A DNA stretch of 34,298 bases from a virus: positions 1 to 34,298 of IMG/VR virus record IMGVR_UViG_3300028114_001015. One strand, 5' to 3'. Both the position numbers and the translations under genes were made by a program. Shown piece by piece: positions 6,625 through 32,003 of the stretch (positions are counted from its first letter, which is position 1; the number at the start of each line of letters is the position of its first letter). Below the pieces are notes generated by a model, which had not been told where the DNA came from, searched no databases, and worked only from the letters and a program-made list of their open reading frames with translations.

Positions 6625-8139
6625 TTAAAACTCCGTTTTCATAAGTAGGACGCTGTCTTTTTTAAGTAGTTGCCCAATTTCTTTGACAAAATTGCCCACG
6701 TTCTTGATTTCTGCTGCGGGGTCTGATTTAGTCCGAGAATCGTAAAACTGATCTGAGGCAAATCCAACTTTCTGGAGTGAAGACGCGCCAAACGATCCTA
6801 ATTGCATTTTAGTCCCCTGCTGCTCCCGCAGAGCGGCGGCAGCAGCAGCAAAGTTGGCGGCATACTCAAAGTTTTCTGTCGCCTCAAGGCCCTTGGCCAT
6901 GTCTTGCGCTTGGAGAATTGACTCCTCGGCGGCATTGTCTCCTGTCGCCCTAGCCTCAAGCAGCCTAGTGTTTAGATTAAACTCGTCGGCCCTTTGCTTT
7001 TTGCGGTCTGCCTCTTTTTGTATGCGATCTGCCTCTTTAGCTTTTTGGTCGGCGTCTTTGCGGGCGCTTTCTCTTTCACGTTCCAGCTCCTCGATGCCCT
7101 CAAAGCTGCCAGGCCCGAGCTGCTTGCCAATGACGTTGCCCTGGCGTGTGCCAGACTCCAATTTCTGCTGACGCTCTTTTTCGCGGGTGATTTCTTTTTC
7201 GGCTTCTAGGCGCTTTTGGGCTGCTTCTGCTGCATCTTCTGCTGCAATAACAGCCTCAAACTCAGCCATTAGCTGTGCGGAATTTTGAGGGCTAACTTTT
7301 CTGGCCTCTAGAGCGCGCTCTAAAGCGTTGCGGCGCTCTCTGACTTCTTGCTCTCTTTGAGCTGCGGCAACTTTTTCGGGATCTCCCCCAGCAGCAGCCA
7401 TTTCCTCCGCTTGGGATCGCTGAAGCATTAAAGACGCTTGTAGGGCCTGCAAAGACTGGCTCTCTTGAGCTTTTTGATCGTTTTTAAGCAGTTCGGAAAC
7501 TGAAGTTCCACCCACTAATCCAGTGTATGCGTCAGCAATACGTCCAAGTAATTGCGACGGTCTGCCGCTAAAAGCGTTGGCCAGTGCCGTGCCAACTCCC
7601 TTACCTAGTTTTTCATCAATAATCTTGCCAGTTTGATCGGCTTGATCTCGCAAATTTTCAAATGACGAAATAGCCCCGCTAAGAGTGGTTTGGCTTCCTG
7701 CTTCTGCCAGAGATTCTGCGAACCGTTCTTGAACTTGTGTGGCAGCAACAACCGCGCTGCTCAAGGTATCAAAAGCAGAGGCAATGGCCTTGCCAACCGT
7801 AGCTGCTACACCGATCAAAATTGCAAACCGCCCGATTACCCCGCCGATGCCCCCGGCAAACTCTTGCGGAACTGATGGGTCAAACGCCTCTTGGGCTGAT
7901 TGACGAACCTTCTTCAGCTCCTCCTGCATCTGGCGAAGCGGCTCAAGGCCATAGTCGCCAATGTCTATCTTGAAGGTCGGAGCCACCCGCTCTTGCATAG
8001 GCTGCCGAGCCGGCATCTGCATGGCCGCCTGCATTTCCTTCTGCGCTTGCCCAGCAAATTGACGCACCTCGGCCAGCGAGGCTTGCAGACCTGTCTGCAC
8101 CTCGTTCTGGGCTGTGATTTTTACTTTTACTTCAGCCAT
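6625..8139 (-). CDS. Tail tape measure protein
   Basis: At 504 residues this is the longest tail-module protein with tape measure features. It has an N-terminal helical segment, a hydrophobic stretch at about residues 96-123 (GGVIGRFAILIGVAATVGKA), and long Ala/Glu/Gln/Lys-rich coiled coils after residue 200, including a run of repeated KEADRIQKEADRKKQRADE heptads. Tape measure proteins set tail length, and 504 residues would suggest a short siphovirus tail of roughly 75 nm by the usual 1.5 angstrom per residue rule. The ATG at 8139 overlaps the end of the chaperone-position gene by 8 bases. Order tube, chaperone position, tape measure, distal tail proteins matches lambda V, G/T, H, M. Confidence 0.8.
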   Translation of the reverse strand: MAEVKVKITAQNEVQTGLQASLAEVRQFAGQAQKEMQAAMQMPARQPMQERVAPTFKIDIGDYGLEPLRQMQEELKKVRQSAQEAFDPSVPQEFAGGIGGVIGRFAILIGVAATVGKAIASAFDTLSSAVVAATQVQERFAESLAEAGSQTTLSGAISSFENLRDQADQTGKIIDEKLGKGVGTALANAFSGRPSQLLGRIADAYTGLVGGTSVSELLKNDQKAQESQSLQALQASLMLQRSQAEEMAAAGGDPEKVAAAQREQEVRERRNALERALEARKVSPQNSAQLMAEFEAVIAAEDAAEAAQKRLEAEKEITREKERQQKLESGTRQGNVIGKQLGPGSFEGIEELERERESARKDADQKAKEADRIQKEADRKKQRADEFNLNTRLLEARATGDNAAEESILQAQDMAKGLEATENFEYAANFAAAAAALREQQGTKMQLGSFGASSLQKVGFASDQFYDSRTKSDPAAEIKNVGNFVKEIGQLLKKDSVLLMKTEF

Positions 8140-15053: not shown

Positions 15054-17117
15054 TCAAGGGGTGAGCGCGGTTTCTGGCTTCTTGCGCCTGTAAATGCGCT
15101 TCTTTTTGCGGGCGCGGGCGGAGAACTCGGAAGCTGTTTGCTGCTGAGAAAATTGTTTTTGCAGGATAAAGTTTTCTCCTTTTTTTGTAATTTGCGCTTG
15201 GAATATGCGAAAAACTCCATCTTCGCCCCTGTCTTCGGAAGACACCTGCTTAATTGTCGCCAAGCCACGCCTCTCAAGGGATTTCCAAACTCCAACCGCT
15301 TCTATTTGTGCAAAAGATTGCGTTGTTACACCTTTTTTGCCCATTGCCTTTGATGCATACAAAACTTCCAAATATGCAGTTCTTCCGCTTCCTTTTTTAA
15401 AAGATTGGCTCCATTGAATAAACGGATAAGTTTCGGCGTTTTGCAAAGCAAAACCGCCATTTTTAGTTTCAAAAATATCCATATAGTCCGAAGAATCTCG
15501 GCCGCCATAATTTTTTGATTCGTTTTCTTTCCACAAAGACTTCGGATCTTTCGACACTCTTGGGTCAGGTTTTGCTAAATCGTCCACGCCGTTGCCACCC
15601 TTAGCACAGTCATTCCCAGGCTTAAAGCCTCCCGCACCCGTCCCGCAGTCCAGCTTGGCAATAAGCTGCGAAAACTCAGCCGCAGGCATGACAACTTCTG
15701 GCTGGGCGATGTCTGGGATGATTTCTTCCTGCGGTTGCGCCTGCTCGACGCCGATCATTACGCCAAGGCCGGCAGCAAACTCGCGCTCGGCAGCAATCTC
15801 GGCCACGGCCTCTTTCCAATCAATGCCCTGCTCGCCAAAGTAGTCCGAGAGGGTCATCAAGCCCGCCTTCACGTCATCACGGCGAGCGGTGGCCTCGCGG
15901 CCTACGTCCACTGTGATGGAGCGCGGGGTCTGCCACCCGACTTGCTGCCAGCCAGCCACCATTGGCAACTCGCGGCGAGAAATGGCGCGGGCGATCGCAT
16001 AGCGCCAGAGCTTCGACAGAAAGGCGTTAACCAGAACATCCTGGCGTGCGGCAAAGCATCTTGCGGCTTTTTGGATGATGAAACGCTGCGCCACGCCACC
16101 GATAGCCGAAGTGTCCCAAACAAACTCGTAAGGCAGCCCGAGGCCAATGGCCGCTGCGCGGATGTATTGCTCCAGGTGCTTGTCGAGCTTCTCATTTGGG
16201 CGATTCATCACGAAAGACTGAATGTCCTCCGTGGACTTCATGCGTGGAACTAGCCCGCCGCCAAAAATGGTTTCCCTAGTCAAGTTGCCGCTACTGTCTT
16301 TGCTGAAGTCGCCAAGGAATCCTTCCGCGCCGATGTTGCCCGTGGCGTTTTTGATCACTAGGCCAATGCTGCTTCCGGCCTTGGCAGCCATCATTTCAAA
16401 GCGGAGCAGCTCGTCACGGTCCAAGACGCTGTTAAGGGCCACGCCGATCGCAGGATAGCCGCGCACCTGGTCGGAGCGTTCTGGCTCGTAGACGTGCAGC
16501 ATTACGTCGGCCTTGATCTCCCTATGTCGGCGCGGATATTCGTCGCCTTCTCCGATAAAGTAGCCAAGCGGACGCTGGAACTTGTCCAGTTTCACGCCGT
16601 CGACCACCCCGGCGTTGCCAGCCGCCGTGTCGGGCGACTCGATGCGGTGGGACTCCACGATCTGCACGGCAGGAGCGCCGTCTGACTTAGCCGTAAGGAC
16701 GGCAAAGATTTCCCCATCACGGTCAATGGCCTCGGAAACCAGCATCTGAAGCGAGCGCATATCGTGCCGCCCGCTGATCTCGGGCGAGCGCGCCCAATTC
16801 TCCCACCATTGCTCGGCGGCATCGTCCCAGGCTTGGTCGCCAGACATGGCTTGCGGGCGGATGCCAATGCCGCTGCCGACCGAATACATGGCCTTATCGC
16901 GCACCGCGCCCCTGACTATCGCGTTGTTGTAGAAACACTTGCGCGATAATGCCATGAGGCGGGTGCGGTCATAGGAGGAAAGGTCAACTTTGGAGTCCTG
17001 CGCCTGCGCGTAAACCCACCCGCGCTCCTCGCTGCGATGGTTGACCGCCTCGATCATGCGCGAAAAGCCAAAGGCAGCGGCCACGCGGTCAACAAATTTG
17101 GTCGGCTTGGTCTTCAT
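15054..17117 (-). CDS. Portal protein with AT-rich C-terminal accessory domain
   Basis: Residues 1-485 form a lambda gpB-type portal. Landmarks are VRDKAMYSVGSGIGIRP, the wing-stem region IREADIRDGE-like IDRDGEIFAV near 131, HVYEPERSDQVRGYPAIGVA, and the crown-side IRAAAIGLGLPYEFVW and RDDVKAGLMTLSDYFGEQGIDW. Twelve copies would form the DNA channel at one capsid vertex. After residue 489 comes a Cys/Gly linker, CGTGAGGFKPGNDCAKGG, followed by a mixed alpha/beta domain (about 515-660) and a basic tail. The DNA changes sharply in composition there: 20 G+C of 60 in 15361-15420 against 41 of 60 in 16801-16860. The extra domain is unrecognised; it could be a cargo or effector domain. The ATG overlaps the gpW-like gene (ATGA). 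Confidence 0.88.
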   Translation of the reverse strand: MKTKPTKFVDRVAAAFGFSRMIEAVNHRSEERGWVYAQAQDSKVDLSSYDRTRLMALSRKCFYNNAIVRGAVRDKAMYSVGSGIGIRPQAMSGDQAWDDAAEQWWENWARSPEISGRHDMRSLQMLVSEAIDRDGEIFAVLTAKSDGAPAVQIVESHRIESPDTAAGNAGVVDGVKLDKFQRPLGYFIGEGDEYPRRHREIKADVMLHVYEPERSDQVRGYPAIGVALNSVLDRDELLRFEMMAAKAGSSIGLVIKNATGNIGAEGFLGDFSKDSSGNLTRETIFGGGLVPRMKSTEDIQSFVMNRPNEKLDKHLEQYIRAAAIGLGLPYEFVWDTSAIGGVAQRFIIQKAARCFAARQDVLVNAFLSKLWRYAIARAISRRELPMVAGWQQVGWQTPRSITVDVGREATARRDDVKAGLMTLSDYFGEQGIDWKEAVAEIAAEREFAAGLGVMIGVEQAQPQEEIIPDIAQPEVVMPAAEFSQLIAKLDCGTGAGGFKPGNDCAKGGNGVDDLAKPDPRVSKDPKSLWKENESKNYGGRDSSDYMDIFETKNGGFALQNAETYPFIQWSQSFKKGSGRTAYLEVLYASKAMGKKGVTTQSFAQIEAVGVWKSLERRGLATIKQVSSEDRGEDGVFRIFQAQITKKGENFILQKQFSQQQTASEFSARARKKKRIYRRKKPETALTP

Positions 17118-30315: not shown

Positions 30316-30444
30316 GAGGCAATCAGTAGGCCGTTTGCGCCATAAGGCAAGAATCATTTGGAAATTGTATAGTGGGGCTAACTCAGCTACCGAGGAATCC
30401 TCGGCAACTGCCTATGACAGGGCTTTGACACTCGCCGCCGCTTC
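30316..30444. promoter_or_regulatory. Divergent early promoter region
   Basis: This 129-base stretch separates the two divergent operons and has no gene. It contains a near-perfect dyad at 30390-30404 (CCGAGGAATCCTCGG, seven-base arms around one base) and an AT-rich TTGGAAATTGTATAGTGG at about 30357-30374. It must contain promoters for both operons. A TATAGT box is visible on the plus strand, but its -35 partner is unclear. Confidence 0.5.
30390..30404. promoter_or_regulatory. 15-bp dyad CCGAGGAATCCTCGG in the divergent region
   Basis: Seven-base inverted arms around a central A. It lies 41 bases before the plus-strand start and 75 bases before the minus-strand start. This is a good place for a repressor that controls both operons. 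Confidence 0.55.
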
Positions 30445-31263
30445 GTGGCGAAGAAAATCACCCGTCGTCCGCAGTTGCTCGTTGTAGTCTCCGATCTCCA
30501 TTGCGGTTCCACCACTGGCTTGATGCCGCCTGATTCGGAGAATATGGCCGGCAACACAATCGGCTTTGGCAAGAACGTCCACCAAGCTTGGCTGTGGGCC
30601 AACTGGAAGAAGGCGCAGGCCGAGGTTGCCAAGATTGCAGGCAATGATCCCCTCGCCCTGCTTATCAACGGCGATGCCACCGAGGGCATCCACCACAAAA
30701 GCCCTGAGGTTGTCGCCAGCCTCATCGAGAACCATGTGGCAATGGCGGCAGAAGCCTTGCGCCCGTTTTCCCAGAGGGCCGTAGAGACACTGGTGGTCAA
30801 AGGCACTGAGTGCCACACCCATGACATCGAAAGCTACCTTGCCCGGCTGCTCGGCGCGCGCGACGGCCTCGCCCGCGAGAAGTGGCTTTTCCGTATCCAC
30901 GGCTGCCTCGTTGATGCAACCCACCATATCGGCGTTACCTCCCGCGCTTACCTTGAGGCCACGGCCATGAGTATCGCAATGGGCAACGCTAGGCTCAACA
31001 GCCTCCGCGCCGGCCACGAAGCCGCCAGCGTCTTTCTGCGCGCCCACCGGCACTGCGGCGGCTGGTTCAGCGATGGCGCTTCGATGCTCTGCATCACAGG
31101 CGGCTGGCAGTTCCTGACCCGCCACGCGCACAAGGTCGTTCCTGACGCCACACCGCGCCCATCCATTATGCTGCTTGATTGGCGAGGAAAGCCCGAGGGC
31201 TCCCTGCCCCAAGTCCACAATTTGCATTTCAACCCGCCAGCGCCCGAGGTTGCCGTGCTGTGA
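30445..31263 (+). CDS. Calcineurin-like metallophosphoesterase
   Basis: The motifs of the family occur in order. VVVSDLHCGS has Asp17 and His19. LINGDATEG has Asp77. VVKGTECHTHD has Gly120 and His124. RAHRHCGGWF has His201 and His203. These would bind two metal ions to hydrolyse a phosphoester. The 272-residue protein starts with GTG at 30445, without a strong ribosome-binding site. Substrate is unknown; phage members act on nucleic acids, nucleotides or phosphoproteins. It is the first gene of the only plus-strand operon and overlaps the next gene by GTGA. Confidence 0.85.
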   Translation: MAKKITRRPQLLVVVSDLHCGSTTGLMPPDSENMAGNTIGFGKNVHQAWLWANWKKAQAEVAKIAGNDPLALLINGDATEGIHHKSPEVVASLIENHVAMAAEALRPFSQRAVETLVVKGTECHTHDIESYLARLLGARDGLAREKWLFRIHGCLVDATHHIGVTSRAYLEATAMSIAMGNARLNSLRAGHEAASVFLRAHRHCGGWFSDGASMLCITGGWQFLTRHAHKVVPDATPRPSIMLLDWRGKPEGSLPQVHNLHFNPPAPEVAVL

Positions 31264-31517
31264 AAAAGAAAGTCACTGCCGAGGAGCTTGCCGCTTCTGC
31301 CTGGGCTGCCGCCCTTTCGCAGATCACCACCCCAGTAGATATCGTGCCTCCCGGCTGGCAGACCATTCAGCAAATTTCCGCCAAGACCAAGGTTCCCGTG
31401 CCAACGCTTCAGCAAAAGCTCAAGCGCCTTGTGGCCTCGGGCAAGGCCGAGCGCAAAATGTTTCGTATTTGCCTGGCCAAGAACACGCGGCCTGTTCCGC
31501 ACTACCGACTCAAGTAG
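31260..31517 (+). CDS. Winged-helix or HTH protein
   Basis: A GTG at 31260 overlaps the phosphoesterase stop (GTGA). The 85-residue protein has a basic N-terminus (KKKVTAEELAASAW), a helical segment and a helix-turn-helix-like core GWQTIQQISAKTKVPVPTLQ followed by KLKRLVASGKAERKMFRICL, which looks like a wing. The end is basic (KNTRPVPHYRLK). It probably binds DNA. Its coupling to the HExxH peptidase recalls the ImmR/ImmA pair, although the HTH is not of the Xre type. Confidence 0.6.
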   Translation: MKKKVTAEELAASAWAAALSQITTPVDIVPPGWQTIQQISAKTKVPVPTLQQKLKRLVASGKAERKMFRICLAKNTRPVPHYRLK

Positions 31518-31518
31518 C

Positions 31519-31860
31519 ATGAAGCCCGCCAGCACCCCACGCAGGCGCAAGAAGGGCCCGCCCTCGATGCGGTTCAAATTTGACGGCGAATGGTGGACGG
31601 TCAAGGTGCAGCGGCCACCTTCCAAGGAATTGTGCGAGGGCATGGCCCACTACAAAAAACGCACGGTCTTCCTGCACCCTGCCGCCCTCAGGGGCAACTT
31701 GCTTGGGATCTGCGCCCACGAGCTGGCCCACGTCACCATGCCGTGCGTGGCAGAGGAAAACGTCCGCGATCACGAGCGCCTGGTGTCTGTCGTGGTGCGC
31801 TGGGCGGCGGGGTTGAACGATGGCAAGGTGACCATTGGGCAGCACCGGGCAGACAAATGA
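31519..31860 (+). CDS. HExxH zinc metallopeptidase, ImmA or SprT-like
   Basis: The ATG at 31519 gives 113 residues; the frame is open further upstream but those codons overlap the HTH gene. The signature is GICAHELAHVTMPCVAEENV, with HELAH (His67, Glu68, His71) and a Glu cluster at 79-80 and 86 as possible third ligand. A preceding strand pair (EWWTVKVQRPP and RTVFLHPAAL) forms the usual beta side. Small HExxH enzymes in phages include ImmA/IrrE-type proteases that cleave repressors and SprT-like proteins. The target is unknown. It starts 1 base after the HTH gene and overlaps the next gene (ATGA). Confidence 0.7.
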   Translation: MKPASTPRRRKKGPPSMRFKFDGEWWTVKVQRPPSKELCEGMAHYKKRTVFLHPAALRGNLLGICAHELAHVTMPCVAEENVRDHERLVSVVVRWAAGLNDGKVTIGQHRADK

Positions 31861-32003
31861 CCTTCTGGCCACTCTTGATTTGCACGCTGTGTTATGCGGC
31901 CACCAGCGCAGGCTTTGCCTACGAAAAAAATTGGCCCATGTGTGGCATTTTTGCAGGATATTTTGCAGCTAACTTGGGATTCCTTTGGCTGGCGTGGCGC
32001 TAA
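31857..32003 (+). CDS. Small two-span membrane protein (48 residues)
   Basis: The ATG at 31857 overlaps the peptidase stop (ATGA). The protein has two hydrophobic segments: FWPLLICTLCYAATSAGFA, then, after AYEKNWP, MCGIFAGYFAANLGFLWLAW. It ends the plus-strand operon. Its role is unknown; it could anchor a partner or act on the envelope. No signal peptide cleavage site is evident. Confidence 0.55.
   Translation: MTFWPLLICTLCYAATSAGFAYEKNWPMCGIFAGYFAANLGFLWLAWR

Follow-up and report, generated by a model that had tools for sequence, protein, structure and literature searches.

The window analyzed here (34,298 nucleotides, positions 1 to 34,298 of IMG/VR virus record IMGVR_UViG_3300028114_001015, which has no sequence-level host) carries a four-gene operon that recurs as a cassette in unrelated phages. 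Across these copies, gene order and gene overlaps are conserved, the metallophosphoesterase (MPE) in the first slot is interchanged among three families, the N terminus of the small winged helix-turn-helix (HTH) protein in the second slot is associated with the MPE family, and the component parts are shuffled. In T7-like phages, the cassette is an accessory insertion. The reading we tentatively favor, at a little under an even chance, is that a translationally coupled pair, consisting of an MPE and a DNA-binding adaptor, forms together with an exchangeable helper a mobile phage cassette for counter-defense or phage competition.

The features of the operon are listed in Table 1. The four plus-strand open reading frames (ORFs) reported in a preliminary description of this DNA were borne out by the ORFs of the window, as were their coordinates and overlaps: the MPE and HTH genes share a GTGA overlap, the HTH and peptidase genes are separated by a one-base gap, and the peptidase and membrane protein genes share an ATGA overlap. 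The operon is also the only one on the plus strand, as a codon-usage gene call returned essentially only minus-strand genes in the rest of the window; this call is rough, because it overlooked the HTH and membrane protein genes. The four-gene arrangement is far beyond chance. Ratios of dN/dS between the window and its relative L002 (0.03 for the MPE, 0.25 for the HTH protein, and 0.04 for the peptidase), and between the membrane protein genes of the window and L022 (0.23), point to purifying selection on the window's copies wherever it is measurable.

Table 1. Features of the cassette in the window
Feature	Position	Strand	Description
TTGACA-N14-start element	30425-30444	+	Precedes the cassette
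Slot 1, metallophosphoesterase (family MPE1)	30445-31263	+	Start GTG, stop TGA, 272 aa, calcineurin-like
Slot 2, small winged-HTH protein	31260-31517	+	Start GTG, stop TAG, 85 aa
HTH protein, ~25-residue N terminus (VTAEELAASAWAAAL)	31260-31334	+	Tag of the MPE1 type; proposed helix for docking to the MPE
HTH protein, winged-helix part	31338-31514	+	Begins near VPPGW motif
Slot 3, small HExxH metallopeptidase	31519-31860	+	Start ATG, stop TGA, HELAH motif
Slot 4, two-helix membrane protein	31857-32003	+	Start ATG, 48 aa, two hydrophobic segments

The four-gene order travels as a cassette, a point on which the preliminary description had called for a search: it was found again, unchanged, in more than 100 viral contigs at unrelated genomic positions. 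Because the order recurs in unrelated phages, the opposite outcome envisaged there, that the genes are never adjacent in relatives, does not apply. Relatives of the MPE comprise 25 close and 96 profile-level matches in viral contigs, some of which are fragments and, where drawn from the same metagenomes, not independent of each other. With the genes of relatives called by profile, the MPE gene is followed by an HTH gene in 136 of the 141 contigs scored, and the four-base overlap between the two is present in 136 of the 137 contigs that were parsed. At the edge of the family, the usual place after distant MPE1 relatives holds no HTH match in three contigs from metagenome-assembled genomes (MAGs), one further genome, and one archaeal virus; distant MPEs occur in Phycisphaerae and Lentisphaerae MAGs, of which L105 and L106 have a weak HTH match. 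A search for prophage copies in a sample of 388 genomes from the phylum of the Lentisphaerae MAG gave MPE1-like matches in 2 genomes and MPE2-like matches in 3. No match to MPE1 was found in plasmids, and no paper on such a cassette was found in the literature.

Four genomic settings can be distinguished. In T7-like phages, the cassette lies between the scaffold and major head protein genes, downstream of the head-tail connector and a 96-aa ORF (setting A). In setting B, it follows a terminase gene and small ORFs and precedes the scaffold and major head protein genes. In setting C, a GpA terminase gene and a tRNA-Met gene are followed by a shorter form consisting of MPE, HTH, and acetyltransferase genes, located between the terminase and a lambda-type portal; a tRNA gene beside the cassette was found in L024 and L025 only. 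In setting D, which includes the relatives of the window, the cassette adjoins a tyrosine integrase gene (PF00589). Three of these settings, in which the cassette has terminase, portal, scaffold, and capsid genes for neighbors, would suit a late role in DNA packaging or head assembly, which we nevertheless judge improbable. The interval between scaffold and capsid genes spans 1.7 to 2.5 kb with the cassette versus 178 to 289 bp in 48 related T7-like contigs that dispense with it, whose capsid proteins are about 58 to 63% identical; the cassette is therefore an accessory insertion in setting A. In addition, other copies sit beside integrases, and MAG relatives lie by helicase and primase genes (which in L107 follow the distant MPE). 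Within the T7-like phages, the head genes co-vary (r of 0.84 to 0.92), whereas the HTH (0.36 to 0.38) and membrane protein (0.42 to 0.50) genes do not follow them.

The window's MPE belongs to the family designated MPE1, and its AF2 model (pLDDT of 82) has a calcineurin-like fold, with VIA-align Z scores of up to 14.9 in comparisons with Vps29, PolD DP1, Mre11, and LpxH. Seven columns (D17, H19, D77, H124, H160, H201, and H203) are invariant in 38 MPE1 sequences. Motif III reads GTECH rather than GNH(D/E), and its Asn is the sole catalytic or metal-binding position that is not invariant. The window protein matched nothing in Pfam down to an E value of 1, PF00149 included, while PF00149 matches 8 of the 38 relatives (best E value, 7.5e-5); PHROG profiles, phrog_221 among them, gave no match to MPE1. 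Searches of PDB sequences with the MPE1, peptidase, and HTH profiles returned nothing useful, and PADLOC left the enzymes unmatched and gave only weak matches to the HTH protein.

A scan based on the peptidase retrieved 80 loci, the majority of which encode a second metallophosphoesterase, MPE2, rather than MPE1. The two profiles do not detect each other (1.8% probability) and show no relation except in the fold. A third family, MPE3, which scores above the PF00149 cutoff, occupies slot 1 of three contigs with setting B-type arrangements (L291, L309, and L288); these cassettes lack the winged-HTH protein and encode a different small protein upstream of MPE3. In all 51 MPE2 sequences of L110 to L185, the motif I Asp is replaced by Cys (CTHG or CSHG), and the HLGD, GNHE, and HTHR/K motifs are kept. 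With no Asn in motif III of MPE1, and Cys in place of the motif I Asp of MPE2, catalysis by the cassette MPEs is not assured. That gene order is kept while one enzyme family is replaced by another of the same fold suggests that the phosphoesterase activity of the slot, not one particular protein, is selected.

MPE2 has a remote match to phrog_221 (9e-22), the family to which the MPE of Cluster A phage BellusTerra (gp53) is assigned (2e-123). Another Cluster A MPE, Gp48 of mycobacteriophage A10ZJ24, is a phosphodiesterase and nuclease that degrades DNA and counters host defense (PMC12287305). As a phage calcineurin-like phosphoesterase, Gp48 is the best precedent for the function of the cassette MPE, although the window's MPE1 is of a different family with a predicted activity, and in the cassette the MPE gene overlaps a winged-HTH gene and is joined by a third gene that can be swapped. 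Bxb1 Gp47, a relative among the Cluster A proteins, is a directionality factor that lacks phosphoesterase activity (PMC12287305), so belonging to the family does not by itself establish a function. A role as a recombination directionality or replication factor resembling Gp47 would agree with the phrog_221 match of MPE2 and with the integrase adjoining many copies. However, the adjoining integrase is of the tyrosine rather than the serine type, many copies reside in head modules without a detected integrase, and MPE1 does not match phrog_221; we regard such a role as slightly less probable still than one in packaging.

The protein encoded in slot 2 is modular. Its Pfam matches are to winged domains only, all below threshold (MarR_2, 0.005; ArsR, 0.025; also TrmB). 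Among 102 distinct HTH alleles, a TAE-type N terminus is present in 53 of the 58 that accompany MPE1, and a W-C-type N terminus in 41 of the 44 that accompany MPE2, one of which also fits a looser TAE pattern. The type of this N-terminal tag agrees with the MPE family in 93 of the 102 alleles, and the opposite type never occurs alone. The associated Fisher value (3e-27) overstates the case, because the alleles are related and the tag adjoins the MPE gene; a safer count is that of cross-family pairs, of which there are at least five (L002/L110, L022/L121, L023/L156, L064/L122, and L024/L113). The winged-helix part, on the other hand, is variable and common to MPE1 and MPE2 cassettes, being 97% identical between L110 (MPE2) and L002 (MPE1), and in the MPE2 set the region of the recognition helix is more variable than the tag. 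Exchange can be followed at the DNA level in L023 and L156: the flanking head-gene DNA is 93 to 98% identical, and homology ends at the MPE start and resumes within the HTH gene. Since the tag is encoded directly beside the MPE gene, it could follow the MPE through linkage alone. A separate observation is that L009 and L139 share the same extra ORF start (ATGAA(A/G)GAAAAACTCAAAGAC...), inserted between MPE and HTH.

The operon is a mobile accessory cassette (a "moron"). From this pattern, we propose a core pair made up of a calcineurin-like phosphoesterase and a small two-part adaptor, the HTH protein, produced by translational coupling. The N-terminal helix of the adaptor would dock onto its own type of MPE, the variable winged-helix domain would guide the complex to particular DNA, and the MPE would there cut phosphodiesters, as either a nuclease or a nucleotide phosphodiesterase. 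The third slot would supply an exchangeable helper effector, namely, the HExxH peptidase with its membrane partner in the window and an acetyltransferase elsewhere. The more specific version, a DNA-targeted phosphodiesterase of two proteins with interchangeable parts, in which the rapidly exchanged winged helix sets the target and competitor or host DNA is cut, we consider unlikely as a whole. The modular HTH protein does provide a directly testable hypothesis for the way in which phages couple an enzyme to DNA-recognition modules that change.

The main rival, somewhat unlikely in our estimation, is an anti-defense operon of the acr-aca type, with the MPE and the slot 3 protein as independent effectors and the winged-HTH protein solely as the operon repressor. 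The cassette resembles anti-CRISPR acr-aca operons in being a small, mobile accessory operon with a small HTH gene, in lying inserted among the head genes of certain phages (here, the T7-like phages), and, for the integrase-side copies, in having an upstream element of its own. Its slot 3 proteins also have precedents: AcrVA5 is a known acetyltransferase that acts in counter-defense, and ArdC is a SprT-like counter-defense protein (PMC7213743). In contrast to an acr-aca arrangement, the HTH gene comes second and overlaps the enzyme gene, and its product has an N terminus specific to the enzyme family. Furthermore, in the pairs L016/L173 and L008/L158, homology of the upstream DNA persists to the very beginning of the MPE gene despite strongly different HTH proteins (39% identical in L016/L173), unlike what would be expected for a switched repressor with its own operator upstream.

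For the slot 3 peptidase, H67, E68, H71, and E79 are invariant in 17 sequences. Matches to DUF6782 and SprT-like domains are below threshold; the best value for the SprT-like family (PF10263) is 0.013, and the window protein scores 13.5 bits against a cutoff of 25.6. A fold search with a weak model (pLDDT of 70) gave no meaningful match. Like ArdC-type antirestriction proteins, which contain a SprT-like domain, the peptidase is a small zincin of the HExxH type carried by a mobile element, but its chain has no DNA-binding domain. Each of the 106 scored contigs with the peptidase has the membrane protein as well, and in 20 contigs an acetyltransferase takes the place of the peptidase, none of them with the membrane protein.

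These data bear on the analogy drawn in the preliminary description to the ImmR/ImmA repressor and protease of ICEBs1-type elements, in which the HExxH peptidase would cleave the HTH protein as a repressor. The likeness consists of a small HExxH peptidase gene following an HTH gene, together with Peptidase_M78 matches in 2 of the 17 peptidases, which are below threshold (E value of 0.029 or weaker); the window peptidase itself is unmatched by Peptidase_M78. We reject such a switch as very improbable on three grounds: the HTH domain is winged rather than Xre type, an acetyltransferase stands in for the peptidase in 20 contigs, and, in 30 of 180 pairs, peptidases that are at least 97% identical go with HTH proteins that share less than 50% identity. 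The cassette is also found where no integrase was detected. A role in the lysis decision, raised in the same place, found no support, and anti-defense or competition is still the best guess; the purpose of the favored coupled-pair cassette is most likely counter-defense or competition with other phages. If a counter-defense role is correct, the MPEs, the HExxH peptidase, and the acetyltransferase would constitute one exchangeable toolkit, borne by phages of poorly studied environmental bacteria.

The TTGACA-N14-start element upstream of the window's cassette is kept in integrase-type and terminase/portal-type copies, whether these encode MPE1 or MPE2, and is mostly missing from copies within head operons. 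Minus-strand TTGACA sequences lie 14 to 17 bases ahead of several other start codons in the window (e.g., at 15057, 13212, 9324, 3636, 1479, and 33089), and 8 of 13 minus-strand sites have a possible start of a listed gene 11 to 18 bases further on, compared to 5.7% of random positions. The element may be a signal for expression, of an unusual kind, in this group of phages. As the same spacing precedes other genes of the window, it is probably a general signal, and the reading of it as a cassette-specific promoter was rejected.

Several minor sequence features were also observed. A palindrome (TACCGAGGAATCCTCGG) is located at positions 30388 to 30406 of the window, upstream of the MPE gene; in L120, its core is also found upstream of the MPE gene (1866 to 1880), and in L004 and L005 it lies past the downstream end of the cassette (7004 to 7018). 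A tRNA-like stretch (GGCGGTG ... GCGGGTGCAAATCCCGCCACCGCC) lies about 0.7 to 0.9 kb past the MPE stop in L006, L013, L014, and L003. These stretches were unmatched by ARAGORN and Rfam, and the arms of the hairpin co-change between phages. Finally, in T7-like contigs (e.g., L014, L019, and L219), a stretch of 178 to 289 bp between the scaffold and major capsid genes persists where the cassette is absent; where it is present, recurring motifs (AGTTAGGCAGACAACTCCTTGTGGAGCCTGTCC) are found in the stretch ahead of the capsid gene, which is possibly a structured leader.
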